Shown one piece after another: positions 755 through 31,122 of a DNA stretch of 34,415 bases. The position numbers were made by a program, and so were the translations under genes. Source of the DNA: Fulvivirga kasyanovii (lineage in GTDB: Bacteria; Bacteroidota; Bacteroidia; Cytophagales; Cyclobacteriaceae); the NCBI RefSeq assembly GCF_009711405.1, contig NZ_SMLW01000647.1:1-34415 (forward strand), written 5' to 3'. The notes beneath the pieces are model-generated. The model was not told the DNA's origin and made no database searches. It saw nothing but the letters and a program-made list of their open reading frames with translations. How positions within the stretch are numbered: position 1 is the stretch's first letter; every line of letters begins with the position of its first letter.

Positions 755-2374
755 TTATTTCCTTTCTGCTCTGAACTGCTGCCCTCCCTGGTATATAATG
801 AGGGCAGGTGATTTATCTTTATTCTGCTCAAATTCAACCTCTACTGCTATTGCTTTCATAAAAAATTTATTATCAGAACCCGGAAAAATCTGAAAGGCTG
901 CCTGCCCTTCAACTTGGAAATAATATTTATCTTCTTCCTCCCAAACCTTTACGGCCTTGCCCTGTAAGCTGTATTCTCCGGTATATTTCTCAAAAGCACC
1001 CTCGTCCAGTTCCACTTCATGCTGTTCTTTCATACGTGGTGCCTTAAATTGGCTCCCATTCTGAGTATGCATTGCGTAATCGGCAACCCCATCGCCACTT
1101 AAATGAAAGGTAATTTGAGCATCAACGACCTTCCAAAAAAACTCATGTTTTCCCTTAGGGTAGACTTCATACCTGCTTTGCCCTGAAAGCTGTGCAAATA
1201 ATTGATCATTCTCCCGGGATATAGTCATAACCGCCCCTCCCGGGTATTCATATTTACCGATATACTTGCTGTAATTTGAAGTATCAACAGCCACTTCTTT
1301 TTCCTCCTTCAAATACTGTTTAAAGAATACTTTAACAAGATACTCTGCAAGGTTGGCCGGAATGATATTCTTTGGAGGAGAACTGTTAGTCAAAACTATG
1401 ACAGTGGCATCAATCTCAGGATAATAAGCGAGATAAGATAAAAAACCATGTAAGCCTCCCCCGTGAGCAATCCTTTTAAGTCCTTTATATTCGCCAATGC
1501 CCCACCCGTAGCCATAGGGGTGGTCGCTGCCATCATTCAAGACCACGTTGCTATGAGCTTTTGCCAGGCTTCCTGCCGTCAACAGATGGCCTGCAAACAA
1601 CTGCCGGTTCCAGTTATACAGATCCCGGGTGGTGCTATAAAGATTACCTGCCCCACCTGCCCAGGTCATATCCCAGTCAAGGGCTTTGCTTATTTTTCCA
1701 CTTTCGTAAGCATAGCCCACAGCTTCATTTTTATAAGTAGCTCCATTTTTGTAAACGCCGGTATTTTTCATTTTAGCCGGCTTAAAAAAGTGCTTACTCA
1801 GAAACTTCTCATAGGTCATGCCCGAAACCTGCTCTACAAGATAGCCCAGAATATAATATCCCGAATTATTATATTTCCACTGCTCTCCCGGTTCGAATTC
1901 ATATCCCAGAGATTTTATGGAACCTATAAGTTCTTTGTGATTTACAGGCTGTTCTACCTTCTCTATAAAACCGGGTTGATCGGTATAGCTCCGGATGCCG
2001 CTGGTGTGAGTGAGTAAATGATGAATGGTTACACTTTCTCCTTGAGGAAAGTCCTGAATATACTTTATAAGTGGATCATCCAGCGACATTTTTCCCATCT
2101 CTACCAGTTTAAGAATTGCCGCCGCCGTAAATTGTTTGGATACTGAACCGATACGGAATATGGTTTCATTGTCAGCCTTCACCCCTTCATCAGCATTCCC
2201 CAGTATTTTTTGGTAAATGATTTCATCTCCTTTGCCCACCAAAACAGAAACGGCATGCTCATTTTCAGGCAGGCTTTTTTGTAATACGGAATCTGCCTTA
2301 TCCGAAAACCGCTGGGCATTTAACCCTGGCTGGAAGATTATAAAAAGGCTAATGAAAATTAAAGTCCACTTCAT
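755..2374 (-). CDS. Secreted serine hydrolase, class C beta-lactamase/DD-peptidase fold, with two C-terminal domains
   Basis: Predicted exported enzyme of the beta-lactamase family (PF00144-type: class C beta-lactamases, DD-peptidases, esterases). A signal peptide covers about residues 1-20, ending LNA-Q. Catalytic motifs are present in order: SVSK (Ser77, Lys80), YNN (Tyr168 to Asn170) and HGG (304-306) in place of KTG, the variant common in esterase and peptidase members. After about residue 366 come two related domains (about 366-445 and 453-539), each starting with a Y-G-Y/K-Y pattern (YIGKYEY, YTGEYSL) and resembling the DUF3471-type domain often found behind this fold. The natural substrate cannot be read from sequence; a true beta-lactamase role is less likely than peptidase or esterase. 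It is divergent from the radical SAM gene. Confidence 0.88.
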   Translation of the reverse strand: MKWTLIFISLFIIFQPGLNAQRFSDKADSVLQKSLPENEHAVSVLVGKGDEIIYQKILGNADEGVKADNETIFRIGSVSKQFTAAAILKLVEMGKMSLDDPLIKYIQDFPQGESVTIHHLLTHTSGIRSYTDQPGFIEKVEQPVNHKELIGSIKSLGYEFEPGEQWKYNNSGYYILGYLVEQVSGMTYEKFLSKHFFKPAKMKNTGVYKNGATYKNEAVGYAYESGKISKALDWDMTWAGGAGNLYSTTRDLYNWNRQLFAGHLLTAGSLAKAHSNVVLNDGSDHPYGYGWGIGEYKGLKRIAHGGGLHGFLSYLAYYPEIDATVIVLTNSSPPKNIIPANLAEYLVKVFFKQYLKEEKEVAVDTSNYSKYIGKYEYPGGAVMTISRENDQLFAQLSGQSRYEVYPKGKHEFFWKVVDAQITFHLSGDGVADYAMHTQNGSQFKAPRMKEQHEVELDEGAFEKYTGEYSLQGKAVKVWEEEDKYYFQVEGQAAFQIFPGSDNKFFMKAIAVEVEFEQNKDKSPALIIYQGGQQFRAERK

Positions 2375-2507
2375 AATTTTATGGTTTGGTTAAAATAAAG
2401 GTCTGCATTTAACATTTCAGGACAAAACGTAAAGAGGCTGATCGGTTTATTTTTAATGATCAGTTCTTAAAATTGCGCTAGTCGATGCAATCCAGTAACT
2501 TCAATTT

Positions 2508-3485
2508 ATGCGGCTTATCTCACATCCTGTATTATGTAATTACTATGTCACGTACAGGTGTAATGCGCGCTGCGGGTTTTGCGACATCTGGGAGCGGCCG
2601 TCCCCGTACATTGACCTGCCTACTGCGGAAAAAAATTTCACGGACCTAAAAAAGCTGGGAGTAAAAGTAATTGACTTTACGGGAGGCGAACCACTGCTGC
2701 ACCGGGAGATAGATAAATTGCTAGGGCTGGCAAAAGAGTTTGGGTTCATCACCACCCTCACTTCGAATTGCTTACTGTACCCGAAGTGGGCAGAGCGACT
2801 AAAAGGCAAAGTGGATATGCTTCACTTTTCCCTTGACTCTCCCGTTAAGGAAGAGCATGACCTTTCAAGAGGTGTCGCCTGTTACGATTTTTTGGTTGAA
2901 TCTATCGCAAAAGCTATTTCCCTGGGAGAAAAACCTGACATACTCTTTACTGTTTTTGAAACCAACGTGCACCAGATAGAGGAAGTTTACAACAAATTTT
3001 GCAAGCCTAACGGGCTCGTACTGATCCTGAACCCTGTTTTTAAATATAATGAGGTGGATACCGGTGAGAAGCTCTCTAACCTGACCTTGCAGCAGCTTAA
3101 GCGATGGTCAAAAAAACCTGGCATTTACCTGAATGAGGCTTTCATCCAATTAAGAAAGGATGGCGGAAACCATATAAGCAATCCGGTATGTAAGGCAGGG
3201 AGCTCAACAATTGTAATTTCCCCTGAAAATGAGCTGGTGTTACCCTGCTATCATTTAGGTATAAAATCACTGCCTATTAAAGACAACCTCTACCATCTCT
3301 ACAATTCTGCTGAAGTACAAAAGCTGATTTCACTCGAAGGCAAATACCCTCAGTGCGAAGGCTGCACCATCAACTGTTATATGCAACCCTCTTTTGCCGT
3401 AGAACTCAACAAATACTGGTGGAAAGCGTTGCCCGGCACCATCAAATACAACCTGATGAAAGGTACCTGGAAGCAGCTTTTTTAA
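2508..3485 (+). CDS. Radical SAM protein with SPASM-like C-terminal cysteines
   Basis: Radical S-adenosylmethionine enzyme, 325 residues. The 4Fe-4S site is CNARCGFC (Cys18, Cys22, Cys25: CxxxCxxC), followed by the GGEP motif at 59-62 that binds the SAM amino group. A second cysteine set (Cys228, Cys247, Cys283, Cys286, Cys290) with the order C-x18-C...CxxCxxxC looks like a SPASM/twitch auxiliary cluster site, as in enzymes that modify peptides or other large substrates. The start ATG at 2508 leaves the cluster close to the N-terminus, as usual. The 133-base gap to the divergent serine hydrolase should hold its promoter, but I see no clear match to TAnnTTTG. I do not recognise the subfamily and no short Cys- or Gly-rich precursor peptide lies nearby, so the substrate is unknown. 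Confidence 0.88.
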   Translation: MRLISHPVLCNYYVTYRCNARCGFCDIWERPSPYIDLPTAEKNFTDLKKLGVKVIDFTGGEPLLHREIDKLLGLAKEFGFITTLTSNCLLYPKWAERLKGKVDMLHFSLDSPVKEEHDLSRGVACYDFLVESIAKAISLGEKPDILFTVFETNVHQIEEVYNKFCKPNGLVLILNPVFKYNEVDTGEKLSNLTLQQLKRWSKKPGIYLNEAFIQLRKDGGNHISNPVCKAGSSTIVISPENELVLPCYHLGIKSLPIKDNLYHLYNSAEVQKLISLEGKYPQCEGCTINCYMQPSFAVELNKYWWKALPGTIKYNLMKGTWKQLF

Positions 3486-3593
3486 GACTCATAAAAAAAT
3501 TAATCACCAGATACTCTACTGACATAAGGCTGTCACTTCTCCCCCTTTACTTTGCTTAAAAGCAAGTTCAAAGACCTTTTAATATTAGTAAAG

Positions 3594-4220
3594 ATGACAA
3601 CATTAGCCTATCCAAAATCAGAAGCAGCTATACTTCCTACACCAGACCCCATCTATTATCAGGCTGGTGATGAACCCGACATGATCGAACTAACACCTAT
3701 AACCTACTTATCCTTAGCAGGAATAGGTGCCCCGGATGAAGCAAGGTTTATAAACTCTATAGAAGCCATCTATGCTGTAGCCTATAATTTAAAATTCACA
3801 AGCAAATATGCAGGCAAGGATTTTATTGTTCCAAAGATAGAAGCTCAATGGTGGAGCGAAACCGGGTTGTCTCTGGACATAACACCTCAAGCAGAATGGT
3901 ACTGGAACATCCTGATCCGGCTCCCTGAGTTCATTGGCACAAAAGAAGTTGATAAGGCTGTTGAAGAGGTGATTCATAAAAGCAATATTACGCTGGCCGC
4001 CGAAGTGCTGCTTACCACACTTGATGAAGGCAAATGTGTGCAGGTATTACATCTCGGCCCTGGAGAGGAACAATTGGTGATGGAAAAAATAATGGAATAT
4101 ATGGACACGAACAATCTGAAAGTCAATGGGTGCCTTCATGAGATTTACATTACTGCCCCGCACCAGGCGTCCAGCAAGCAGTCAAAGACAATTATCAGAT
4201 ACCCGGTAAGTAAAGCATAA
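3594..4220 (+). CDS. GyrI-like small-molecule-binding domain protein
   Basis: Cytosolic protein of 208 residues resembling the GyrI-like/SOUL-type ligand-binding family (PF06445-like). Supporting segments are ITYLSLAGIGAP near the start, KDFIVPKIEAQWW in the middle, and GKCVQVLHLGPGEEQ with LHEIYIT towards the end, the pattern seen in stand-alone members of this family. No DNA-binding domain is attached, so it is not an AraC or MerR regulator itself. The frame can be extended to a TTG at 3552, but the ATG at 3594 (MTTLAYPK) gives the usual N-terminus for these proteins and I prefer it. The gap to the radical SAM gene is about 108 bases, so cotranscription is possible but unproven. Ligand and role are not known. 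Confidence 0.75.
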   Translation: MTTLAYPKSEAAILPTPDPIYYQAGDEPDMIELTPITYLSLAGIGAPDEARFINSIEAIYAVAYNLKFTSKYAGKDFIVPKIEAQWWSETGLSLDITPQAEWYWNILIRLPEFIGTKEVDKAVEEVIHKSNITLAAEVLLTTLDEGKCVQVLHLGPGEEQLVMEKIMEYMDTNNLKVNGCLHEIYITAPHQASSKQSKTIIRYPVSKA

Positions 4221-4276
4221 AACCGCCATTGGATCAGCAAACATTAAGAGGTAACCCCAAAATCAGAATTATTTTT

Positions 4277-4313
4277 GTCGATTCGTCGACGAATAAGTCG
4301 ATTCATCGACAAA
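4277..4313. repeat. 20-bp-period direct repeat with nested palindrome, candidate operator
   Basis: Two copies of GTCGATTCrTCGACrAA (4277-4293 and 4297-4313) match at 15 of 17 bases and start exactly 20 bases apart, about two helical turns. The left copy holds the perfect 14-bp palindrome ATTCGTCGACGAAT at 4281-4294. Outer arms TTTGTCGAT (4274-4282) and ATCGACAAA (4305-4313) also pair. It lies about 95 bases before the 68-residue gene, where a repressor or activator site would be expected. No cognate regulator is visible. Confidence 0.55.
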
Positions 4314-4407
4314 CCACTTAAAAGAGAGTAAAAAATTGGGTTATTTTAAGATAACCGCAAATAAAATACTGAACACGGTCGTTATAGCTCTACAACAAAA
4401 TAAAACC

Positions 4408-4614
4408 ATGCAAAACGAAAGAAAAGAAATCAAATTAAAAAGGGCCCTGATACTGGGGAACTTTTACAACAAAAGTGTCCGAATCGTTAAAGTTATCAAC
4501 GAAGGGTATGAAACCATCGTCGACACTATTGTAGGCTTAAAACAGGACATCGTACTAACAAAGGGAGGCTTATCTATTCCGAAAGCTTCAATCAAGACTA
4601 TATATCAGCTTTAA
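4408..4614 (+). CDS. Small protein of unknown function (68 residues)
   Basis: Short basic, beta-rich cytosolic protein without Cys or signal peptide. The sequence alternates predicted strands: RALILGNFYN, SVRIVKVINEG, ETIVDTIVGLKQD, IVLTKGGLSIPKASI. It looks like the small barrel proteins of about 70 residues common in Cytophagales with a LGN...G..V.T.V......I.LK.G..IP..SI pattern, which is an impression from memory and not a verified family. The open frame reaches a TTG at 4336, but the ATG at 4408 (MQNERKEIK) gives a compact, well-formed protein and leaves the repeat-bearing region as a leader. Stop codon lies inside a convergent hairpin. No function is proposed. Confidence 0.6.
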   Translation: MQNERKEIKLKRALILGNFYNKSVRIVKVINEGYETIVDTIVGLKQDIVLTKGGLSIPKASIKTIYQL

Positions 4615-4637
4615 GAAAAGCCACGGCTATTCTTAAA
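4610..4637. terminator. Compact convergent hairpin containing both stop codons
   Basis: TTTAAGAA (4610-4617) pairs with TTCTTAAA (4630-4637) and GCC (4620-4622) with GGC (4625-4627). The plus-strand TAA at 4612-4614 and the minus-strand stop at 4633-4635 both lie in the arms. T-runs are short, so it may be a weak terminator or a 3' end stabiliser. Confidence 0.5.
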
Positions 4638-7600
4638 ACATAAATCCTAACCGGATATAAAAAAGAGTTTCTTCTTCAGAGTGACCCACTTCTGCTGATA
4701 CTACTGTTGTGTTAAAGGGAGCGATCCACAAACCTCCCCCGTAGCCGTGATGCCACAGGCTGGAATCTTCACCATCGAGCCAGACTCTTCCTATATCGTT
4801 GAAGGCCAATATTCCCATACTGGCAGGGAAAATATATGTTCGGAATGAAAACAGGTTCCAGCGTGCTTCAAAATTGTTATAAAACTTGGTATCTCCATAA
4901 AAACGTGTTTTACGATATCCACGCAACTCAGATTTACCATCCAGGATTTGCGCCTGATAGAATTCATAATCACCAAAATTACTCCCAAACCCAAAGCGTG
5001 TTGCCAATGTAAATGAGGAAGGCAACCTTAGGGTATAGTAGAAAGCCAGGGCAGAGTTAAAAGAAGAAAAGGTTTTTTCCGCATTGCTTATCCCGGTAAG
5101 TACAGAGGCTTCATTGTTCCAGAAAACACCTGCCGTAGTTAGCTGGGCACTATTACGCTTATCAAAAGTAAGGTTCAAAGCACCTCCCGTATAACCTTTA
5201 TACACATCAAAATCTACAGCCCCGGTAGCGTTATTAAAATCAGTAATAAAGCGGTCGTCATCATCAGTGTCTTCTATTTCTATAGCCTGGTATTTATGTG
5301 AGACTGAGAATGTGGCAAAGCCTCCTATCTTTTTATAGAGGCCAACCTCTGACGAAACCTCCTGGAAACGTAGCCTGTAATAGCTAATGGGGCGTCCTAC
5401 GTTCGTTACTTCATCAATATCCTGATTAAACTCTGTTTCATTGCCCAGGCCGAAGAAGTTATTTACATAATTTGGTTGCTTTACGCTAAGCTTTACGCTC
5501 AAATTCCAATCACTGATGGCATGGGTAAAATCTCCTGTGTACCTAAAATCGTATGAGGAGGTTTTCAAAGCATAACTTGCCAATAATGTATGTTTGCTTT
5601 TATACGGCTCCTTTCTAAATCCATGAGTAGTGTACATGAAGCCACCCCCAATAAAAAGGCCGTCATCCGGGTTAAGGTTACCCGTAACCAGCGGCATTAG
5701 CACATCATACTTATAGGCCTTACGATCATAACGGTGTACCTCAGGGTTGTCTGACAGGCGCTTTTTGCTCTCACTGTTAAATTCAAATTCATTGCCGAGC
5801 CTGGTGTCATAAAAAATATTTTTTTTACCTAAACCTGCCACATGGGATCTATCTTTCAGGATATCCTCATCCTCTCCGCCTATTACCCTTATTTTAATGC
5901 CTCCTTTACTTTCTCCCTCAATTAAAAATTCATCTTCACCTCCCAGGCCGTACAGTCTTATCTCCCGGGTTTCCTCCTTATTAAAAAGGCGGTCATAGAT
6001 CTTTTTCTTTTTCTCTCCGTCCTTTTTCATCTTGCGAACTACTACATGTACATCACCATTTTCATGCCTGGTTACATGAAAGTACTCATGCTTATCGCTA
6101 CCTACCACATCAACTTCCTCAGCAAGGAACAAGTAATGTTCAATAGCATATTGCTCCAGCTTGTCCCTTCTTGATTTAATTTTTGCAACCACTTCTTCAC
6201 CATGCAAGGCATAGATGGAGTCGGGCCACTGACGGATAGCCTCTTCAATTTTAGCATCAGTCAGGCTATCTTGGATGGCCCGGACTGTGGCTATCCAGTC
6301 TTCTTTGGAAAGACCGGTAAGGAACGAGCGATCGAAATAGCGCGCATTAAACATAAAGCCGGAGGGCCACCTTACATCATAGTCAAAGCCTTCCAGCTTA
6401 GGCAAAGCCCATTTTCTGCTTACCAGACTGGGCAGCAGACCTTCATTCACAAAAAAGGCCTGATCACGGTCGCGAGGAATGGGCCTGTATATATCACCCT
6501 TCTCATCTTCTTTATCAAACCTTGCCCAACGCCACTGGTCATCATGACGGTCCCAGTCACCAATAACCAAGTCAAAGAGCCGGGATTTTAATGTAAATTT
6601 CTGATCTACCTCATTGTCATTATCATCTATCAGCTTATCCAGCACTTTGGAGGTACTTACGATCTTTTCCGAATTACCAAAAAAAGGTGCATCCGACCAG
6701 TCATCATCCGGCCTTTCTTCATAAAGCGCCAGCGTATTGGCAAAAGTCTTTTGATATTCTCCAAACCTGGGATCATCCGGAATATAAACCAGCTTCGGAT
6801 TGGTGTGATAGATGCCTACTGCATCGGCAAGTCCGGGGACTACAAAAGCACCATAAGGATGAGCAGCAGAAATCTGGTCCTGCACAAGGTCAACCGCAAA
6901 AGTCTCTCTTAAGAATGCCGGCACCGCATTCTCAGGATATTTTTCAATAGACCTTAACACATATTGTTTGCCATTCGCAGCTTCCAGCCTCAGAGACTTG
7001 GTTTGCATCCCTCCACCGCGCTGCACAATCTTTAACCCTCCATGCTCGCTGCCAATATCAAAAACCGGAATTTCAATTTTCTGTTTCCACTCTGCCCGGT
7101 AGTTTTCTCCCATAAGCGCTTCCCCAAGGCCTTTCTTCATGCCGTACTGATTACTGGCATTAGCAACTGCAACACTGTCTTTGAGGTTAAACTTGCGCTC
7201 AAACTCTTCGGTAGTCAGCTTCGGTTGAAAGGGCTTTTTGTAAAGTGTTTTCTCAAAAGCCAGCTTCCCGGAAGGCTCATCATCCTTCGCAGGTTTCCAG
7301 TATTCAACTTTAACCTCTCCATTTTTATAAAAATCAAGCCGCGCAAAACCATATACGGACTCCGTATACTCTGCAAATCCTTTGGTTCGTACATACTCCG
7401 TTTTACACCCCGAGCCGCTTACAATATAATGTATGCTGTCTTTATAGATATACTCCAGTGCATGTTCATGGCCGGAAACATGGATAAGGCCGGGGTAATT
7501 ATCAAAAATATTGACCATGCTATTTCGCATTCCTCTGTATGTGGGATGGGAGATGTCCTGGATATTACCAAACACTTTACGAAAGAATGGGTATATGGAA

Positions 7601-8352
7601 CCTACAACCGGCATGGGAATATATAATGGTGGCGCCAGCTCCGTTAGTGGAAAAAAATGATCTTTAACTGTATTAAACCCTCCATGATTGCCGTAAGAAT
7701 ACATAGGATGGTGGGTAGCTACAATAATTTTCTTCTCGGGGTTTCTTTTAATGATGTCATCCATCAACTGTAAAACCTCAATAGGGTTGCCTGTGGGGCA
7801 ATCGCCCTGCAATTCATTAGGCTTATCCCATCCGTGCAAAAACCATTGGGTATCGATGATGATCAATTCTATTTCCTCATTGAGGGATACCGCAACAGGC
7901 CCCGGACATCCATTGTCAGGAAGGAAAACATTCACACCCTCCGCTTTGCCCTCAATATAATCTTCCTGGTTTTGCAAATATGACCAGCCATAACTTCTCC
8001 CCTGGGCCCAGTCATGGTTACCCGGGATAAAAAAATATTTACCGGCGTAGCCAGTGGTCAAAGCCAATTGCTTATCGATAGCAGCTTCAGAAGCCTCCCT
8101 GTCAAGACTGTATGAAGGCGGCATACCTTTCGGGTACAGGTTATCCCCGAGAAAAATCAAACTGCTTTTATCTCCGGCTGAATCAAGTTGTTGCTTAAGC
8201 ACCTCAAAGATTTTTTTCTGCCCCTGAGTGATTTTCCCCGCATCACCAACCAGAAAAACAGAGTACGTAAGCGTATCAGAAGAGTTGGGCTGGCTGTAAC
8301 CGCTTAATGTGCAAACCAGAATCAAAATCCCTAAAACAAAAGATTTTTTCAT
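4633..8352 (-). CDS. Outer-membrane fusion: purple-acid-phosphatase-like domain, kinase-like middle region, C-terminal beta-barrel
   Basis: 1239-residue exported protein. Signal peptide about 1-20 (ends SGYSQ). Residues about 28-345 are a calcineurin-like phosphoesterase of the purple/tartrate-resistant acid phosphatase type: GDAG (36-39), GDNLY (69-73, the GDxxY motif whose Tyr binds Fe(III)), GNHD (111-114), ATHH (212-215), GHEH (294-297). Residues about 440-690 hold kinase-like motifs: YVLRSIEK (464-471), RET (482-484), GDWDRHDDQW (598-607) and DRDQAF (628-633). Residues about 801-830 contain two acidic GGEDE turns. From about 886 the sequence alternates like a 16-strand Omp85/surface-antigen barrel (FFGLGNET), ending YIRLGFMF with the terminal Phe needed for barrel insertion. 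Likely phosphate release from organic esters at the cell surface; the middle part's activity is inference. Lies 45 bases behind the beta-propeller lipoprotein, probably one operon. Confidence 0.85.
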   Translation of the reverse strand: MKKSFVLGILILVCTLSGYSQPNSSDTLTYSVFLVGDAGKITQGQKKIFEVLKQQLDSAGDKSSLIFLGDNLYPKGMPPSYSLDREASEAAIDKQLALTTGYAGKYFFIPGNHDWAQGRSYGWSYLQNQEDYIEGKAEGVNVFLPDNGCPGPVAVSLNEEIELIIIDTQWFLHGWDKPNELQGDCPTGNPIEVLQLMDDIIKRNPEKKIIVATHHPMYSYGNHGGFNTVKDHFFPLTELAPPLYIPMPVVGSIYPFFRKVFGNIQDISHPTYRGMRNSMVNIFDNYPGLIHVSGHEHALEYIYKDSIHYIVSGSGCKTEYVRTKGFAEYTESVYGFARLDFYKNGEVKVEYWKPAKDDEPSGKLAFEKTLYKKPFQPKLTTEEFERKFNLKDSVAVANASNQYGMKKGLGEALMGENYRAEWKQKIEIPVFDIGSEHGGLKIVQRGGGMQTKSLRLEAANGKQYVLRSIEKYPENAVPAFLRETFAVDLVQDQISAAHPYGAFVVPGLADAVGIYHTNPKLVYIPDDPRFGEYQKTFANTLALYEERPDDDWSDAPFFGNSEKIVSTSKVLDKLIDDNDNEVDQKFTLKSRLFDLVIGDWDRHDDQWRWARFDKEDEKGDIYRPIPRDRDQAFFVNEGLLPSLVSRKWALPKLEGFDYDVRWPSGFMFNARYFDRSFLTGLSKEDWIATVRAIQDSLTDAKIEEAIRQWPDSIYALHGEEVVAKIKSRRDKLEQYAIEHYLFLAEEVDVVGSDKHEYFHVTRHENGDVHVVVRKMKKDGEKKKKIYDRLFNKEETREIRLYGLGGEDEFLIEGESKGGIKIRVIGGEDEDILKDRSHVAGLGKKNIFYDTRLGNEFEFNSESKKRLSDNPEVHRYDRKAYKYDVLMPLVTGNLNPDDGLFIGGGFMYTTHGFRKEPYKSKHTLLASYALKTSSYDFRYTGDFTHAISDWNLSVKLSVKQPNYVNNFFGLGNETEFNQDIDEVTNVGRPISYYRLRFQEVSSEVGLYKKIGGFATFSVSHKYQAIEIEDTDDDDRFITDFNNATGAVDFDVYKGYTGGALNLTFDKRNSAQLTTAGVFWNNEASVLTGISNAEKTFSSFNSALAFYYTLRLPSSFTLATRFGFGSNFGDYEFYQAQILDGKSELRGYRKTRFYGDTKFYNNFEARWNLFSFRTYIFPASMGILAFNDIGRVWLDGEDSSLWHHGYGGGLWIAPFNTTVVSAEVGHSEEETLFYIRLGFMF

Positions 8353-8364
8353 AAAAACGAGGTT

Positions 8365-8398
8365 GAAGTTAAAAATTAGCCAAAACCGCTTTAACTTC
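8365..8398 (-). other. Intercistronic inverted repeat
   Basis: GAAGTTAAA (8365-8373) and TTTAACTTC (8390-8398) form a 9-bp perfect stem with a 16-base loop between the two minus-strand genes, overlapping the upstream stop codon. It has no T-run on the minus strand, so it is more likely a processing or attenuation element than a full terminator. Confidence 0.4.
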
Positions 8399-9288
8399 TA
8401 GTAAGACTTATAACTAATTTTAAAAATTCTGCCTCTGGCCCCATCACCTTCACTGGAGAGATACATGGTGCCGTCCCCGGCAAAGCATATACCTTCCGGT
8501 TGCCGGTAAATACCCCCATCAAGGCGCACTACCTCCTTAAGTTTATAATCAGGCGAGAGCACTACCAACACTTTGTCTGCGGAAAGCCAGTATATATCAG
8601 AAGTCAAAGGATGAACGGCTATTGCAGATGGATCAAAACTATGGATTTTGTTAAAAAACTTTCGGTTCTCAATGAAAGCTTCGATCTCCTCTTCTTTCAG
8701 ATTAAAAAGTGGTTTGCCTGCCACCTTCTTCTCTTTTGGGTCATACTCATAAACTGCCTTACCTTTAACCTTATTGTCTTCAATCTCTCCTTTGCCTTTA
8801 CAGGCAAGCAATAGCTTTTCCCCGGAAACAGATAGCCCTTCAATATCATTACCGGAAGAAAAATCCGTATCCACCTCCTCAGCCTCTACTTCATCATTAT
8901 CTGATATTTCGAAGGAAAAAACATCACCGTTGCTCTTCACTATATACACTCTATTGCCGATGGCTTCTATTCCTTCATAATCTCCGCCCTTGGCAAACTT
9001 AATTTTGCGCTCTACTTCACCATTTTCTGCTTTTAGCACATAAACATAGCCCTGCTCATCTTCTACTGCCAGCAGGTGGTCTGCACCAAACACCGAAAGG
9101 CCGGAAATCTCCTCCAAGTCGTAGTGAAGCAAATACTTCTCATCAGGAGCGTACAATTTATACGGCACCTTATGATGATCATAATCCATATAAATACTAT
9201 CCGAAACCGTATTAGTAATGCTATTGCAATTGAGCGTTGAAAGGGCTAAAAACGAGAAGGCACAGCACGTAAAAATCAGGTCTTTCAA
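8398..9288 (-). CDS. SdiA-regulated-type beta-propeller lipoprotein
   Basis: 296-residue exported protein resembling the SdiA-regulated family (PF06977-like, YjiK-type beta-propeller, related in fold to phytase-like and SMP-30 proteins). Recurrent blade segments are LEEISGLSVFGADHLLAVED, GDYEGIEAIGNRVYIV, GNDIEGLSVSGEKLLLA, FDPSAIAVHPLTSDIYWLS and QPEGICFAGDGTMYLSSE. The N-terminus (MKDLIFTCCAFSFLALSTLNC) looks like a lipoprotein signal with Cys21, although Asn before Cys is not the usual residue. The start is TTG at 9288; no in-frame ATG precedes it and the next Met (about residue 33) would remove the signal. It precedes the phosphatase-barrel gene in the same direction, which suggests a shared surface role, perhaps with phosphate esters. 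Biochemical function is unknown. Confidence 0.78.
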   Translation of the reverse strand: MKDLIFTCCAFSFLALSTLNCNSITNTVSDSIYMDYDHHKVPYKLYAPDEKYLLHYDLEEISGLSVFGADHLLAVEDEQGYVYVLKAENGEVERKIKFAKGGDYEGIEAIGNRVYIVKSNGDVFSFEISDNDEVEAEEVDTDFSSGNDIEGLSVSGEKLLLACKGKGEIEDNKVKGKAVYEYDPKEKKVAGKPLFNLKEEEIEAFIENRKFFNKIHSFDPSAIAVHPLTSDIYWLSADKVLVVLSPDYKLKEVVRLDGGIYRQPEGICFAGDGTMYLSSEGDGARGRIFKISYKSY

Positions 9289-22020: not shown

Positions 22021-22641
22021 ATGTCCGTGACTTTAATTCTCGTAATCATCACTGTACTGACCAGTCTCTATGCCTGGAACAATCAAGACATCCTCAGAAA
22101 ATGGATATTTAACCCATACAGTGTAAATGAATATGGGCAGTACTACCGTTTCATTACATCGGGCTTTATTCATAATGATTTTATCCACCTGCTCTTTAAT
22201 ATGCTTGTGTTATGGATGTTTGGTGAACAGGTTGAGTACATCTTTGCTGCTATCTACGGTGTTGCAGGAAAGGCTATTTTTGTCGCACTTTATATTTTAG
22301 GTATTATCGTTTCAGATATTCCTACTTATCTCAAGCATAAAGATCATGCTTATTACAATGCTTTAGGAGCTTCAGGAGGAGTGGCTTCAGTACTATTTAG
22401 CTTCATACTCTTTGCTCCTGCCCAAAAGCTATATTTGTACGGCATCATCGGCCTGCCAGGCATTGTCTGGGCAGCACTGTATATATTATACTCTGCTTAT
22501 ATGGGTAAAAGACAGGGAGACAATATAAACCATGATGCTCACCTTTACGGAGGATTGTTTGGAATTGTGTTTACTATACTGGTTTACCCTAAGGTAATCA
22601 GTCATTTCATAGGGGAATTGGGGGATTTGAGTTTTTTTTAA
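22021..22641 (+). CDS. Rhomboid-family intramembrane serine protease
   Basis: 206-residue inner-membrane protein with about six hydrophobic segments. Rhomboid marks: HLLFNM (His56 and Asn60, oxyanion side), the active-site GASG motif (Ser118 in NALGASGG), and the catalytic His174 in NHDAHLYGG near the last membrane segment. The dyad Ser118-His174 is complete, so an active protease is expected; the substrate is unknown. It follows the oxoglutarate dehydrogenase operon by 48 bases with a hairpin in between. Its stop overlaps the stop of the converging gene by the four bases TTAA. Confidence 0.9.
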   Translation: MSVTLILVIITVLTSLYAWNNQDILRKWIFNPYSVNEYGQYYRFITSGFIHNDFIHLLFNMLVLWMFGEQVEYIFAAIYGVAGKAIFVALYILGIIVSDIPTYLKHKDHAYYNALGASGGVASVLFSFILFAPAQKLYLYGIIGLPGIVWAALYILYSAYMGKRQGDNINHDAHLYGGLFGIVFTILVYPKVISHFIGELGDLSFF

Positions 22642-24716
22642 GGACGGCTAATAGAAAACTCTTTGCGTGCTTTATAAATTTTTCCATCAGTAGCTATTAT
22701 TTCAACGTACACCAAGTAATCCCCCTCTACATCTGATTTATAAAACTCAAAAGCTGCTTCACCTGCATCATTGATCCTAAGATTGGGATTCCAGAATATT
22801 GTACATCTAAGGTCAGGAGCTTCATCAATCAGACGAGATAAAGTCTTAGGTTCCGTATTATCAATACCTCTAATCTTAGTAAAATGATCCCGTAGAGACT
22901 GTAATGGGTTAACAACATCTGATTTCAATTCAATTAATATAACCCCATGTTTACCAAACATACCATACCTTGCCTCCGAAGCAGGAGAATTGTACAAATG
23001 AATTTTAGCAATATCGCTAACATCAAACTCTAGAAGATATTTAATCTCAAAAGTTGGGATTCCGTTAATTAGTATAAGTGGTTTTTCTTTATATCGATGA
23101 CTACTTTCCTTTGGCACTAACCTGAGTTCCTTACGCCCCTTACGCTTAACAACACGACATTTAGGCACAATTGCTTTCAAAGTTTCCTCAACCGTAGGAA
23201 GCGTCTGATAATCTGCCAGTTGAATAGAGTAATCTGGAACAACAAATTTTGATTCTTGCCTTGGAATGCGTTGCTCATCTGAGGCATAAACTTTTTGAAC
23301 TAGAAGCCTTTTCCTACTCAATGCTATCATGCTGTTATAGTTACCACTAAGAGGTTCATTATTGTCTTCATACGAATACGAGCACTCATAATTGAGTATA
23401 GCATCAATTTCACCGAGTATTGTTCCATCCTCAGCAAATTGAACTGGCCAGATGGTACCGTCTCCTTCCTTCTCTTTGAGCCATTCTATAATACTCCCCT
23501 TTCTACCATAATAGGCTTCCTTGGCATAATACTCCTCCAGATTATAAACTGATATTCTTGAAGCAGGATCCTCTGTCAGCACATCCAATCTAATCTTTGG
23601 TGTTTCACAAAACTTATCATTCAGTGCCATTCCAGATTTTGGATAAGACCCCAAATTCTTATCAAAAACTTTAACAATTACCAAGGAATTATCATATACC
23701 TGACGAATACTAGAATTTATGGAAGCTCGAATGAGCTGACTTCTTTCTCCAACTTCAGTTAACTTGATATCAACAGTATCGGCTAAATCCTTTACAATTT
23801 CCTTCTTAGCCAACACTCGTCCAACAGAATCCTTTAGTATGTAAGTAGCCCTATATCCACTAGCTTTCGATGGTAAAGAGCCCATGACCTTAACGTTAGA
23901 AGCAAGATCAAGTTCAACAGTTGATATCAAGGAATCATTCAAAAATTCTTCTAATGTCGCTTTAGTACTATGCGGCGAGCTACCTCGTGAACTCTTTATT
24001 TGGAGAATGAATCTATTGTCGTTCTCTTTAATGTCAATTATTGCACCTATACTGGATACGGCAGGCAGCTTCACCTCTTTTAATTCTCCCTGATACACAA
24101 ATCGCATTGTATAATGTTCTTTGCCAGGAACAAGTGTAAATTCACCAACCCCATAATTATCAGTAGAAACATCTGTCACTTCCGAATAAGTCTCATCATA
24201 AATTTTCCCGGATATCGGTATACCATCTCCGCTTACATCCTGGACATGCATCGTAATATGGTTCTCTACCCCAAATAGCAGTACTCCGGTACCTGTTTCT
24301 GTCTTAAACTTTATCTCAAGTTTCTCTGATGTCAAAGAATATTCATAGTCCTCCCCATATACTTCAATATCTACCCGACCTGAATGAACCTCACCACTTT
24401 CATCATGAGCAAAGACAGTATAATTTCCACTAACCAATTCAGGTGATAGTATAAGCTCTGCAGATTTGTTTAAACTATCGGTAATAATACGCTTTTCCTC
24501 TATTACATTCCCACCAGGTCCGACCAACTGCAGCCTGATTAGAATTTCGTCCTCCACAAGTTTACCTGTACCCACCTCTCTACATATGACCCCAACTTTA
24601 ACCACATCACCAGATACATAAAAATGTGAATCAGCAACCAAATGCAAATACTGATTGTAAGCACATAGTTGCAAACTATGACTAATAAAAATACAACTTA
24701 ATAATACTTTTAACAT
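22638..24716 (-). CDS. Exported macroglobulin-like protein with TonB-plug-like domain and no barrel
   Basis: About 692 residues from ATG 24716 (MLKVLLSC..., a normal signal peptide); an ATG at 24731 would add five residues and overlap the upstream gene. The N-terminal part (YLHLVADSHFYVSGDVVKV, then LVGPGGNVIEEKRIITDS, GNYTVFAHDESG) looks like the MG2 domain of alpha-2-macroglobulins; further beta-sandwich repeats follow. Counted from the longer start, residues about 549-603 (LILINGIPTFEIKYLL, DVSDIAKIHLYNSP, YGMFGKHGVILIEL) resemble the plug domain of TonB receptors, and the end (TIFWNPNLRINDAGEAAFEF) the final sandwich often seen in such Bacteroidota proteins. It begins two bases after the DUF4249 gene, so it belongs to the second TonB receptor unit and may help that receptor at the periplasmic face or surface. 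Role inferred. Confidence 0.75.
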   Translation of the reverse strand: MLKVLLSCIFISHSLQLCAYNQYLHLVADSHFYVSGDVVKVGVICREVGTGKLVEDEILIRLQLVGPGGNVIEEKRIITDSLNKSAELILSPELVSGNYTVFAHDESGEVHSGRVDIEVYGEDYEYSLTSEKLEIKFKTETGTGVLLFGVENHITMHVQDVSGDGIPISGKIYDETYSEVTDVSTDNYGVGEFTLVPGKEHYTMRFVYQGELKEVKLPAVSSIGAIIDIKENDNRFILQIKSSRGSSPHSTKATLEEFLNDSLISTVELDLASNVKVMGSLPSKASGYRATYILKDSVGRVLAKKEIVKDLADTVDIKLTEVGERSQLIRASINSSIRQVYDNSLVIVKVFDKNLGSYPKSGMALNDKFCETPKIRLDVLTEDPASRISVYNLEEYYAKEAYYGRKGSIIEWLKEKEGDGTIWPVQFAEDGTILGEIDAILNYECSYSYEDNNEPLSGNYNSMIALSRKRLLVQKVYASDEQRIPRQESKFVVPDYSIQLADYQTLPTVEETLKAIVPKCRVVKRKGRKELRLVPKESSHRYKEKPLILINGIPTFEIKYLLEFDVSDIAKIHLYNSPASEARYGMFGKHGVILIELKSDVVNPLQSLRDHFTKIRGIDNTEPKTLSRLIDEAPDLRCTIFWNPNLRINDAGEAAFEFYKSDVEGDYLVYVEIIATDGKIYKARKEFSISRP

Positions 24717-24718
24717 AT

Positions 24719-25822
24719 TTAATACCACCATGAAGGCTTTGAATTAGTGATGGAAGTGTACCCTGATTGGTAATCAAGACAATTGTTACATACAGCAGGA
24801 GGAATATGCGGCGCTCCTGGTACCGGGGCACATAGATCATCCAGAGCTACATTAAATGGAAAATCAGATGGCTTTATAAACCATCGTGTTAGGGACTCAT
24901 CCGCAACGATAAAATATCCGGATGTTTTCTCCTCAGGATTAGACACGTTGTATATATTACTCGGAATCTCAAATGGAGGTGGATCAAAAATACTTCCACC
25001 ACCCTGCTCCCTCTGTATCTTAATGTTTTCCCAAAACTCGTAGGCACCCTTCCCAAGTGAATATTGAGTAACTAATACGCTAAATTCGTGTTCCACTCTT
25101 GAATTAGCGCTCAACTCTAAAAAAAACAAGGGTTGAATATATCCACCGGTAATATCCCTAACCATCGTATAATCTTTAAAATAATTTTCGTTAGAAATCC
25201 AACACCTTTTGTTTGGATGTCCAGTTGAGAGCAAGCCTGCTTGCACCTCCCATGCTGCTTCGTACTTCCATCTGTAAAATTTTTCTTCTCCTGTGTTTTC
25301 TGGTATTTCAATCCGTCCTTCTACACCCTGCACTACAACTGGCTTTTCTTCTCCTGCAACGTTCTTTAACACTTCTTTTTCCATAAATTCCGGTTGCACA
25401 GAAGATACAGAACCTACAACTGTCATGGTTTCTTCCATGGACTCATATATCTTTCCTTCTTTGGTGGTAATCCTCAATTTATAAATTCTATCCTCTAAAA
25501 CTTTGAAATCAGCATCATAGAGCCTATAGGTACCAGAATTATCAAGATCTTCAAAATGCCATGTATTATCAAGATCATCCTGTAGGATCACTTCAGCCTC
25601 TAAAACGGGTTCATCCTTTTCGTTAGAAACCTTACCAGTATTAGACAGTTTAACACTAAAATATTCAGGATCAACCGGTAACTGTAAGCGATCGTTGTAC
25701 GAAATATTAGTTATAGTAGATTCTACTACTAACCGAGATGGTTCAGATGAAGTATCAAAAGATACCAGTTCAATACAGGATCCTAGCACACCTACTGCCA
25801 TTATTAATATTATCAATCTCAT
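24719..25822 (-). CDS. DUF4249 family lipoprotein
   Basis: 367-residue lipoprotein: signal MRLIILIMAVGVLGSC with lipobox LGSC, Cys16 as the lipid site. The body is beta-rich and matches the DUF4249 pattern seen beside TonB receptors: LVVESTITN near the start, EAEVILQDD, GTYRLYDADFKVLEDRIYKLRITTKEGKIYES, a central FYRWKYEA segment, and a Cys-containing end (DLCAPVPGAP, VCNNCLDYQSG). Genes of this family usually lie directly behind a TonB receptor, as here with a gap of 4 bases. By position it may be the surface lid or ligand-capture partner of that receptor, like SusD to SusC, but this is inference. Confidence 0.85.
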   Translation of the reverse strand: MRLIILIMAVGVLGSCIELVSFDTSSEPSRLVVESTITNISYNDRLQLPVDPEYFSVKLSNTGKVSNEKDEPVLEAEVILQDDLDNTWHFEDLDNSGTYRLYDADFKVLEDRIYKLRITTKEGKIYESMEETMTVVGSVSSVQPEFMEKEVLKNVAGEEKPVVVQGVEGRIEIPENTGEEKFYRWKYEAAWEVQAGLLSTGHPNKRCWISNENYFKDYTMVRDITGGYIQPLFFLELSANSRVEHEFSVLVTQYSLGKGAYEFWENIKIQREQGGGSIFDPPPFEIPSNIYNVSNPEEKTSGYFIVADESLTRWFIKPSDFPFNVALDDLCAPVPGAPHIPPAVCNNCLDYQSGYTSITNSKPSWWY

Positions 25823-25826
25823 TATA

Positions 25827-28505
25827 TTAAATTCTAAAATTGTACGTGATTGACGGAAAAATACTACCTAGAACTGATAGTTTATAGGCTGTTCCTCTTT
25901 GGGTGAAAAATACTGAGTAAGGATTTTTACGACCATACGCGTTGTAGATCGAAAAAACCCACTCCCCATCTATAGCTTTATGCTTTTTAAAGCCACTTCG
26001 CAGTGTTACTGACAGATCAAGCCTATGGTAATCAGGAATTCTGAACTGGTTGCGTTCTGAGAAATTCAATACTGCAGGAATCCCGTCATAATTAAACTTT
26101 GAAACAGGGACAGTAATGGGACGCCCTGTAGCGTATGTAAAGTTCCCACCAATGCTAAAACGTCTACTTATTTTATAACTGCAAACAAGGGACAAGTTAT
26201 GGGGTGTATCATAATTAGCAGGAAAGTAAGTACCATTATTTATCCGATTCTCTCTATACTTCGCAGACTTAAATAACCTCTCACTTCTTGAGTAAGTATA
26301 TGCCAACCAGCCAGTCAAGAGTCCCTTATTCTTCCTAAATAAGAACTCAATCCCGTAGGAGCGTCCAAAACCTTGAAGTAAATCCGCCTCAAGTTTATCA
26401 TTAAGCAATATTGTAGTACCATCTTTATAATCAACAATATTATGAACTTCCTTATAATACCCCTCTACCGATACTTCCAATACATTGTCGTGCATATTTC
26501 TAAAATAACCAACTGTAATTTGGTCACCTACAGCAGGGCGTATACTAGGTCCACTGGACTTCCAGAAATCAAGCGGTGATAGGGCAGTAGTATTAGATAT
26601 TAGGTGGACATATTGTATTGTTCGGTAATAACTTAGTTTCAAAGAATTTTTACTGTTAAGCAATAACCTTAGTGAAAGGCGAGGTTCAATACCATTATAA
26701 GTTTGAACCGGCTCATCATTATCGTATACAAGTGTATCAACTATAGAGTCTACGGATTTGGGCTGACCCTCATCATAAGCATATGTAGTGGCTCCATACA
26801 ATGTATACATTGAATACCTCGCACCATACACTAAACTTAGATTGGGAGTGAGTGACAATTCATTACTTAAGTATACAGCACTTTCAATGGACCGCTCATT
26901 ATCCAAATTCTTAGAAATTACATTAGGATTATTATCTCCAGGTATCAATTCTCCAGGCTCAAACACATAAACCAATGAGTGAAACCCAAAATCAAATTTA
27001 TTATTTGCAGAATGCTCATAATTGAAATCAAATTTGGCATTTAACGTTGAGATAGATGAAGAATATTCAAACTGTCCCACTCCCTCTTTGTCAAATACTT
27101 CATTAAGGTATTTACTTCCAGAGAGCTGGAGGGTGGATAACAGTTTTTTATTATAAATATGATTCCATTTGACCGAGAGCCCTTTATTTTTCCAGTTATA
27201 AGTGGTATCAGACACAAATTTAAATCTATCCGCACTGCTATAACCAGAAACACTAACCACATTTGACTTATTTATTACATGCTTGACTTTTACATTTACA
27301 TCATGGAATGTCGCTGAACTCTGGTTCAAATCAGGATTATCAACTTTTTTCAACAGCCAGTTCACATAAGAAACCCTTCCCCCTGCTATAAATGTGGTCT
27401 TATTCTTAATAATAGGTCCCTCTATTACAATTCGACTGGAAATCAATCCTAGTCCCCCGTTTATTTTATACTTGGTGTCATTTCCATTACGAAGGTTAAC
27501 ATTTAAAACAGAAGAAACCCTTCCTCCATACATAGCGGGCCCTCCACCTTTATAAAGAACGACATCTCGTACTATATCGGGATTAAACGCAGAAACTAAT
27601 CCAAAAAGATGCGATGAAGAAAATAATAAAGCACCGTCCTGCATCAACAGGTTCTGGCCTGCTTCTCCTCCACGTACATTAAAGCCAGCGGTTCCTTCAC
27701 CCACTGCACTTATTCCGGGTAACGCGGTAATAGTCTTAACCGGATCTACTTCGCCAAGAAAGGTAGGAAGAGTTTTAATTGACTCTAAGCTAAGAACTTC
27801 TTTTCCCGCTTCAATTCCCTTTACATTAGCGTCATCCGCCACAGCCGAGATTGTCACCTCTTTCAACTCTACTGTTTTCTTATATAACTCAACATCAACG
27901 ATTCCTGAAGAACGTATATCCACCCAAAACTCTTTAGGTTCATACCCAAGATATTCTAATTTAATCAAATGCTTTCCGGCAGGTAATACAAAAGAATAAT
28001 ATCCCATAACGTCAGAAACTCCACCCTTTCTTAAATCTTCAGTTGCAACTTGTACTCCTGTCAACACTTCCCCTGTTTCTCCATCTCTTGCATAGCCCGA
28101 CAACTCTACACTTTTTCTATTAAGATTCTGTTCGTAACTACCAACAATAAAATCAACAGGTATGTCCGATACCAGATTCTCGGTACCCTCTTCCCTTTTT
28201 GGCTGATTTACAATTATCCAATTATTTTTATAAGTAATAACCTGGAGTCCATATTGAGGTAACACTCCTTCAAGTAGAGCAGTAAGATTAGTTCTTTCAT
28301 CAACCTTGAGTTTTATTCCATCTAACCATTCCTCTTTGTAAAAAAAACGGAGAGAGTGCCCCTCTTCAACCTGATCAATCAAGTCTGTTAATAGTAAATT
28401 ATATTTGCTTTCTACCCATATAGTATCGCTTTGTGCATAAGAGTTATAAGTGGTAAAAGTAATATGAACAACCAGGAGGATTTTGAAAAAAAAATGTGCC
28501 TTCAA
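25827..28505 (-). CDS. TonB-dependent receptor with STN and carboxypeptidase-like regulatory domains
   Basis: Outer-membrane active transporter, 892 residues from TTG 28505. In the longer frame from 28553, numbering is: signal about 17-41 (MKAHFFFKILL...SYAQ), STN domain about 52-115 (signalling to an anti-sigma factor or periplasmic contact), carboxypeptidase-like regulatory domain about 148-215 (LSGYARDGETGEVLTGVQV), plug about 232-357 (TLPTFLGEVDPVKTITALPG, GFNVRGGEAGQNLL), then the barrel to the C-terminal NFRI. The frame starting at 28553 would begin inside the terminator of the preceding unit; TTG 28505 gives a standard MK signal peptide. Heads a unit with DUF4249 and the macroglobulin-like gene. 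Substrate unknown. Confidence 0.9.
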   Translation of the reverse strand: MKAHFFFKILLVVHITFTTYNSYAQSDTIWVESKYNLLLTDLIDQVEEGHSLRFFYKEEWLDGIKLKVDERTNLTALLEGVLPQYGLQVITYKNNWIIVNQPKREEGTENLVSDIPVDFIVGSYEQNLNRKSVELSGYARDGETGEVLTGVQVATEDLRKGGVSDVMGYYSFVLPAGKHLIKLEYLGYEPKEFWVDIRSSGIVDVELYKKTVELKEVTISAVADDANVKGIEAGKEVLSLESIKTLPTFLGEVDPVKTITALPGISAVGEGTAGFNVRGGEAGQNLLMQDGALLFSSSHLFGLVSAFNPDIVRDVVLYKGGGPAMYGGRVSSVLNVNLRNGNDTKYKINGGLGLISSRIVIEGPIIKNKTTFIAGGRVSYVNWLLKKVDNPDLNQSSATFHDVNVKVKHVINKSNVVSVSGYSSADRFKFVSDTTYNWKNKGLSVKWNHIYNKKLLSTLQLSGSKYLNEVFDKEGVGQFEYSSSISTLNAKFDFNYEHSANNKFDFGFHSLVYVFEPGELIPGDNNPNVISKNLDNERSIESAVYLSNELSLTPNLSLVYGARYSMYTLYGATTYAYDEGQPKSVDSIVDTLVYDNDEPVQTYNGIEPRLSLRLLLNSKNSLKLSYYRTIQYVHLISNTTALSPLDFWKSSGPSIRPAVGDQITVGYFRNMHDNVLEVSVEGYYKEVHNIVDYKDGTTILLNDKLEADLLQGFGRSYGIEFLFRKNKGLLTGWLAYTYSRSERLFKSAKYRENRINNGTYFPANYDTPHNLSLVCSYKISRRFSIGGNFTYATGRPITVPVSKFNYDGIPAVLNFSERNQFRIPDYHRLDLSVTLRSGFKKHKAIDGEWVFSIYNAYGRKNPYSVFFTQRGTAYKLSVLGSIFPSITYNFRI

Positions 28506-28540
28506 AAGAATATGAAAATTTAAAACAACGATTATCAATA

Positions 28541-28572
28541 AAAACGGGAACATTGAATCATGCTCCCGTTTT
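28541..28572 (-). terminator. Terminator of the SusC-SusD-lipoprotein unit
   Basis: On the minus strand AAAACGGGA (28572-28564) pairs with TCCCGTTTT (28549-28541) over a 14-base loop, and T-rich sequence follows. It lies 31 bases behind the Calx-beta-like lipoprotein gene. Confidence 0.8.
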
Positions 28573-28602
28573 CAAAATCTAATAAAATACTATTTTATAA
28601 TA

Positions 28603-29649: not shown

Positions 29650-29679
29650 ATATAATTTTTTTTAATCAGATAACTAAAC

Positions 29680-31110: not shown

Positions 31111-31122
31111 TTTTACTAGTTT

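Follow-up and report, generated by a model that had tools for sequence, protein, structure and literature searches.

A predicted kinase-fold domain between a purple acid phosphatase and an Omp85-type barrel in Fulvivirga kasyanovii and other Bacteroidota

Can a single outer-membrane protein carry both a phosphatase and a kinase? The question is raised by a gene of Fulvivirga kasyanovii located in a 34,415-nucleotide stretch of DNA (hereafter, the window; positions 1 to 34,415 of contig NZ_SMLW01000647.1, assembly GCF_009711405.1, forward strand), where an ATG-started open reading frame (ORF) at 4633-8352 (-) encodes a protein of 1239 amino acids. An earlier note on this DNA had read the protein as a purple acid phosphatase and an outer-membrane barrel separated by a region with motifs of atypical kinases, and the ORF, its strand, its coordinates and the quoted motifs are all present in the sequence. 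Prediction and comparison are the source of what is described below: the domains of the protein and its kinase fold, its conserved residues, the modular make-up of its relatives and the conserved neighboring gene.

A predicted kinase fold between phosphatase and barrel

On the joint evidence of structure prediction and sequence profiles, the middle domain has, with high confidence, a kinase fold. The AlphaFold2 model of residues 392-890, built from 64 sequences, has a predicted local distance difference test score (pLDDT) of 92.5 and a predicted template-modeling score (pTM) of 0.92, and a Foldseek search of this model against the PDB yielded 598 matches with E <= 10, 18 of them with E <= 0.001. 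The best 50 of the 598 are all kinases or kinase-fold proteins, including YihE, MSMEG_1954/Rv3197 and an mTOR chain, whose assignment to this fold does not come from their titles. The first seven rows are filled by CtkA (E 9.0e-7 to 2.7e-5), followed by the lipid kinase PI4K2A (E 6.3e-5), the spore-coat kinase CotH (E 8.9e-5) and amicoumacin kinase, with HipA at rank 15 (E 7.4e-4) and the Golgi casein kinase at rank 20 (E 1.3e-3). The N-lobe of the model follows the kinase order, with a strand at residues 441-446, the GGG loop, strands at 453-457 and 463-468 (the latter containing R467), and a helix at 485-496 that contains D492; past further helices, the DWDRHDDQW stretch (599-607) and then PRDRD (626-630) follow toward the C terminus. 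The confidently predicted fold is thus kinase-like, and a fold of another kind, which would have told against the earlier note, did not appear.

Sequence-profile searches, a route independent of the predicted model, lead to the same protein. The profile of 64 sequences, compared with 177,635 PDB sequences, placed CtkA first (E 0.057; next, HDAC6 at E 0.95), and so did a profile of 48 diverse kinase cores (E 0.0034; next, an unrelated protein at E 0.2). CtkA (3akj, 3akk, 3akl), an atypical Ser/Thr kinase, is therefore the best match both by fold and by sequence profile. In the profile alignment, the DRH loops of the two families pair, and the metal-Asp region of CtkA is shifted by about one residue in an ungapped stretch. 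The differences, as seen through the search alignments, are nevertheless considerable: CtkA shows 12-14% identity, has 325 residues in the PDB, carries neither phosphatase nor barrel, and has Asn in the catalytic loop where the window family has Gln.

No Pfam or NCBIfam model recognizes the kinase-fold domain. A Pfam scan of residues 392-890 in 64 members disclosed no credible family common to them among the 25 of 30 families shown; the matches to Haemocyan_bet_s (5 of 64 members, scattered and weak, best E 0.0016) and Inhibitor_I42 (one member, E 0.0075) were taken as chance. Among 48 diverse members, 19 families were matched weakly, including CotH (PF08757; E 0.018 in 1 of 48) and HipA_C (PF07804; E 0.18 in 1 of 48). 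Neither of these curated profiles reached its cut-off or matched the window protein, and CotH was also absent from the 25 of 30 families shown for the 64 members. Pfam contains a Fam20 model, and Fam20 appeared neither among the 19 families nor in the Pfam scan of the window protein nor among the PDB sequence matches. Membership in CotH, HipA or Fam20 by sequence was rejected on these scans. The resemblance to these three families suggested by the earlier note holds at the level of fold, all of them being among the structural matches, but CtkA is closer by both structure and sequence. Fam20C/Golgi casein kinase, a kinase fold active in the secretory compartment and likewise carrying a DRH loop, differs from the present family in its lower fold rank, in being eukaryotic and in lacking phosphatase and barrel. 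In a profile-profile comparison (29 of 30 CotH loci and 26 of 30 HipA loci being usable), CotH was matched at E 0.0035 with probability 9.3 and HipA at E 0.0051 with probability 7.0; the controls gave E 0.037 and probability 1.4 for reversed CotH and probabilities of 0.1 to 0.2 for reversed HipA, phosphatase and barrel, and CotH against HipA gave probability 67. In the low-probability pairing with CotH, GDWD and IPRDRD of the window protein fall opposite the GNWD and IPYDYD that one CotH sequence carries. The substitutions D228Q and D251A of Bacillus subtilis CotH are called catalytically inactive (PMC7821199). Assignment to a defense system was rejected as well, the best PADLOC match being PDC-M03A at E 0.012 over residues 585-610, a segment that spans the DRH loop.

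The flanking parts of the protein correspond to the earlier description. Pfam PF00149 (Metallophos) matches residues 33-231 (E 3.2e-9; 37.9 bits against a cut-off of 21.5), with Metallophos_C giving only a very weak match in the 1239-residue protein. D37, D70, Y73, N112, H214, H295 and H297, which we take to be the metal-ligand positions of purple acid phosphatases, are all present and are kept in 87 of 96 sequences covering the region, the window's among them; the mismatches rest on one MAFFT alignment, and misalignment may explain some of them. With a profile of 63 sequences, tartrate-resistant acid phosphatase (TRAP) type 5 was retrieved from the PDB (E 7.1e-9), and 7 of the 8 PDB sequences listed match the phosphatase region, comprising six tartrate-resistant or purple acid phosphatases and glideosome-associated protein 50. 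Thus, the N-terminal domain shares its seven ligand positions with TRAP/ACP5, its best PDB relatives, and differs in having a kinase fold and a membrane barrel joined to it. Cys149 (96 of 96 sequences) and Cys185 (95 of 96) could, to judge from their conservation, form a disulfide, which would fit an extracytoplasmic location.

At the C terminus, matches to Pfam Omp85 (residues 947-1199; 22.5 bits, below the cut-off of 24) and NCBIfam Omp85_fam (residues 892-1239; E 4.6e-33, 115.3 bits, below the cut-off of 200) agree with the model of residues 40-1239 (pLDDT 88.2, pTM 0.80), in which 16 long strands were counted manually beyond residue 883. The best 50 of the 635 PDB matches to this BamA-like barrel are BAM, TamA or SAM chains. 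No POTRA domain was matched at E <= 1 in the Pfam scan of the protein; some Omp85 subfamilies are described as lacking POTRA (PMC4104836).

The fusion of a phosphatase with an Omp85 barrel is already catalogued. In 2014, Heinz and Lithgow defined an Omp85 'Metallo' subfamily with PF00149, discussed in the relevant passages of their paper as a metalloprotease (PMC4104836). As in the window protein, PF00149 there lies N-terminal to the Omp85 barrel, and those passages mention no POTRA for the subfamily. PF00149, however, is the calcineurin-like phosphoesterase model of Pfam, and the phosphoesterase nature of the domain, together with the predicted kinase fold in the middle, sets the present protein apart from the published description and corrects the 'metalloprotease' label. 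The word 'kinase' occurs 0 times in the main text of that paper, and no report of a kinase domain in phosphatase-Omp85 proteins was found in the openly licensed literature, a body that leaves most subscription journals and preprints outside. In short, the folds are known, the kinase-fold family is without a curated model, and the function of the domain combination is examined nowhere in the searched literature.

Conservation and architectures of the kinase-fold family

In a first alignment of 105 sequences (window included), R467 and K471 are kept in 103 of 103, D601 in 104 of 105, and R602, H603, D628, R629 and D630 in all 105; 78 of these sequences come from a peptide search with six patterns, WDRHDDQW among them, and the loci it found (L036-L115) may favor the motif. 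We therefore also used 81 complete, non-identical ORFs (window included) found only by whole-sequence or whole-profile searches, one of which employed a profile built from peptide-pattern loci; 20 stretches in the source set were chosen for their odd forms, which lowers the counts. Three ORF pieces (two of L016, one of L033) are excluded from this set and from the full set of 155 complete ORFs, and broken or cut ORFs are included in the sets of 158 and 105. Among the 81, conservation amounts to 75 for R467, 77 for K471, 80 for D599, 74 for D601, 79 for R602, 73 for H603, 77 for D628 and 75 for D630, and all eight positions rank in the top 34 of 338 columns. The Arg/Lys pair and the DRH and DRD motifs singled out by the earlier note are thus near-invariant, the outcome of poor conservation not having appeared. 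Its kinase glutamate, Glu483 of 'RET', did not survive the comparison: this residue is conserved in 11 of 81 and ranks 281 of 338, and was therefore rejected as the helix-C glutamate. D492, in the helix following the third strand and kept in 75 of 81, is by its conservation the better candidate for the helix-C acidic residue.

When eleven kinase-site positions are taken together (E allowed at 492 and N at 606), the site is intact in 72 of the 81 complete ORFs and in 146 of 155 overall, including 128 of 128 ORFs with a phosphatase hit and 9 of 9 sequences with an incomplete phosphatase ligand set. The nine members with broken motifs all lack the phosphatase domain and, from their sequences, look like pseudokinases or diverged copies; some family members are probably not kinases. 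Seven of them (L158, L159, L160, L161, L162, L163 and L164) are pseudokinase-like members of the kinase-beta-barrel form. In two kinase-beta members (L004/L148; L149 6391-8148 (+)), Ser replaces D601 and D599 is kept, and because of this pattern D599 or a neighbor may be as important as D601.

Of 296 Bacteroidota genomes chosen across the phylum, 113 carry the family, as do 29 of 60 genomes of the window's own taxonomic family (own genome included in both); the window's genome has five copies. More than a third of the sampled genomes thus encode a kinase-fold family for which Pfam and NCBIfam have no model. The nearest relative among the 80 loci from the peptide-pattern search is that of Fulvivirga marina, with 85% identity in the best segment. 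The 158 non-identical ORFs comprise 128 with the phosphatase-kinase-beta-barrel architecture, 16 kinase-beta-barrel, 7 kinase-beta and 7 kinase-only forms, a tally that does not represent frequencies, odd forms having been deliberately added and three ORFs being fragments. By size, 143 matches fall into 82 ORFs of at least 1100 residues, 42 of 800-1099, 12 of 480-799, 6 of 400-479 and 1 shorter. The phosphatase-bearing form requires seven changes on a tree of 109 kinase cores (a set from which some near relatives were thinned out), at least two of these changes being forced by well-supported branches, implying at least two gains or losses of the phosphatase. One sequence from a contig labeled Thalassovita (Pseudomonadota; L084) falls among Bacteroidota on this tree and is perhaps mis-binned. 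Three kinase-beta paralogues adjoin in one genome (L149 3129-8148), and a gene copy in a same-genus genome (L016) is interrupted by a stop. In the window's own genome (contig 195, L147), a phosphatase-less paralogue overlaps the end of an ORF with an HD domain and PycTM, a Pycsar effector membrane module (ORFs 2958-5648 (-) and 5614-6849 (-)).

N termini were judged by eye, with no signal predictor. Export is suggested in all 17 inspected. Among 16 N termini of phosphatase-less forms, a lipoprotein-like start is seen in 6 of the 7 kinase-beta forms and in a single barrel form, the remaining 4 outside the kinase-only group have a signal peptide, and all 5 kinase-only forms have an N-terminal hydrophobic anchor. 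Of the 12 barrel-less relatives, 6 are lipoprotein-like, 5 carry a membrane anchor and 1 a signal peptide, which implies that the kinase-fold domain is kept out of the cytosol. The earlier note spoke of a surface machine; a passenger attached N-terminally to an Omp85 barrel may instead point into the periplasm. The patatin domain of PlpD is said to be carried to the surface (PMC4104836).

Possible functions of the protein

What might such a protein do? In the following proposal, we infer the catalysis and residue roles, the substrate and donor, the topology, and the connection to the propeller gene upstream. The signal peptide and barrel would place the protein in the outer membrane, where the kinase-fold domain, of the CtkA/PI4K2/CotH/HipA/Fam20 branch, would take a phosphoryl group from a nucleotide and pass it to a substrate in the envelope or outside the cell. 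The phosphates would be held by the glycine loop and R467/K471, the acceptor activated by D601 of DRH and the metal bound by D628/D630; the TRAP-like phosphatase domain might strip phosphate off the same or a related substrate, and the phytase-like propeller encoded upstream could act in the same pathway. That the kinase-fold domain is an active phosphotransferase seems to us somewhat more probable than not, and we give even chances to the full proposal, in which a single outer-membrane anchor bears two opposed phosphate activities of one envelope enzyme. More tentatively, and at somewhat less than even chances, Bacteroidota may possess a wide, unnamed family of envelope kinases acting outside the cytosol, the main form of which would be one outer-membrane protein able both to phosphorylate targets in the envelope or outside the cell and to dephosphorylate them, a bacterial parallel to phosphorylation in the secretory pathway.

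Several findings weigh against this proposal. The target-normalized template-modeling scores from Foldseek are low, 0.45 to 0.55 for CtkA and 0.33 for CotH, so that the match shows the fold and not a close relative, and the profile-profile probabilities of 9.3 and 7.0, next to 0.1 to 1.4 for the controls, are low as well. Kinase motifs are broken in 9 of 155 complete members, Gln takes the place of the metal-binding Asn usually found in the catalytic loop (Q606 in 148 of 155, Asn in 4 of 158), and the propeller neighbor is not seen in 32 of 73 loci. The main objection is the supply of adenosine triphosphate (ATP), which is scarce outside the cytosol, to a kinase located there. Bacteria are reported to release ATP (PMC7432876).

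Among the alternatives, the strongest, although it remains unlikely, is a kinase-type transferase whose target is not a protein but a lipid, a sugar or a small molecule, or which transfers adenosine monophosphate (AMP), as SelO does, using an extracellular or periplasmic nucleotide. The lipid kinase PI4K2A is the second-best kind of fold match, the small-molecule kinase for amicoumacin is also listed, and the propeller has phytase-like kin; the present results do not distinguish kinds of acceptor, and PMC5536186 describes CtkA, the top match, as a Ser/Thr kinase. We regard it as decidedly improbable that the middle domain is a pseudokinase, that is, a module with a binding or regulatory role, sensing nucleotide or phosphate and acting as a control on the phosphatase or barrel. 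The lost motif residues, the Gln in place of Asn and the scarcity of ATP would all suit such a module, but the canonical residues are among the best conserved columns, and they are kept alongside an incomplete phosphatase ligand set and in most phosphatase-less members, unlike the pattern of a decaying enzyme.

A phosphate-scavenging station, in which phosphatase and phytase-like propeller free phosphate from organic phosphates that the kinase-fold domain merely captures or handles, would account for the largely complete phosphatase ligand set and for the propeller neighbor. It has little probability in our estimate, given that the kinase domain is the constant part of the family, that 30 of 158 ORFs (three of them fragments, in a set enriched for odd forms) have no phosphatase hit, and that no phosphate-starvation gene is named among the 23 other window ORFs scanned. 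Least probable of all is an accidental resemblance, with the middle domain having another fold: the low template-modeling scores and weak profile-profile values would allow it, but predicted structure and sequence profile both rank CtkA first.

If kinase and phosphatase indeed act in opposition on one anchor, the protein would be a self-contained switch. The apparent extracytosolic location raises the questions of whether bacterial phosphorylation occurs in the periplasm or on the surface and of what supplies the phosphate donor. Exported Porphyromonas proteins, the gingipains, are phosphorylated by a kinase that was not identified according to a 2023 review (PMC10202324); this gap is a question to which the kinase-fold family could matter, not evidence for its activity. 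A Riemerella metallophosphoesterase with phosphatase activity is also described (PMC8208144, as cited in PMC10202324 and PMC12645872).

Features of the locus and neighboring genes

The features of the gene are collected in Table 1. The C-terminal limit of the kinase-fold domain follows the free-standing relatives (406-433 residues), which stop near residue 742.

Table 1. Features of the F. kasyanovii gene and its upstream neighbor (window coordinates)
Feature	Position	Strand	Basis
Whole gene, 1239 residues: signal peptide, purple acid phosphatase, kinase-fold domain, beta domain, 16-strand Omp85-type barrel	4633..8352	(-)	
N-terminal signal peptide, ~residues 1-20	8293..8352	(-)	judged by eye from sequence
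Purple-acid-phosphatase domain, ~residues 26-360	7273..8277	(-)	PF00149, seven ligands, TRAP/ACP5 PDB relatives
Predicted kinase-fold domain, ~residues 394-742	6127..7173	(-)	AlphaFold2 model and Foldseek; CtkA by sequence profile
GGGMQTK, residues 446-452, at the glycine-rich-loop place between strands 1 and 2	6997..7017	(-)	model secondary structure and conservation
R467 to K471, third strand and just beyond; candidate phosphate-binding basic residues	6940..6954	(-)	conservation and model
D492, helix following third strand; candidate helix-C acidic residue replacing Glu483	6877..6879	(-)	conservation, 75/81
DWDRHDDQW catalytic-loop motif, residues 599-607	6532..6558	(-)	conservation; aligned with CtkA DRH loop and CotH GNWD
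D628-R629-D630 metal-Asp motif	6463..6471	(-)	conservation; aligned with a CotH DYD
Beta domain, ~residues 745-870, with GGxGxD-like stretches; separates kinase fold from barrel	5743..6120	(-)	sequence and model
16-strand Omp85-type barrel, ~residues 884-1239	4636..5703	(-)	Omp85 profile matches, model, Foldseek
SdiA-regulated (phytase-like) beta-propeller gene, 45 nucleotides upstream, lipoprotein-like start by eye	8398..9288	(-)	PF06977, E 3.5e-8

A propeller gene lies directly upstream and co-directional in 41 of the 73 loci with room for it (80 loci in all). When flanking ORFs were clustered and groups present in at least 7 loci considered, the propeller was the only frequent group that almost always lay next to the gene in the same orientation (39 of 40 loci). 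PF06977 was matched in all 4 propeller relatives checked, 1 of which also passed the Phytase-like cut-off, and many of the relatives start, by eye, like lipoproteins or secreted proteins. A larger single-linkage flanking group, present in 53 loci, adjoins the gene in 24, of which 22 have it upstream on the opposite strand; in the member inspected of this opposite-strand group (flanks of L036-L115), an HD domain was seen (L052 1-477 (-)).

Ten neighbors at 8 loci were scanned overall for the other architectures. A common neighbor of the kinase-only forms was rejected, the seven neighbors at five loci being different (RNase Y, M20 peptidase, sigma factor/DUF6596, DUF5686, SET, methyltransferase and CLC channel), and the three neighbors at loci of other forms differ likewise. 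Within the window, 755-4220, beside the gene, encodes a beta-lactamase-fold protein with DUF3471, a radical SAM protein and a GyrI-like protein. Farther away, 22638-34317 (-) holds an apparent nutrient-uptake block with two TonB-dependent receptor-like genes, a SusD-like gene, a Calx-beta protein, DUF4249 and a weak MG2 match.

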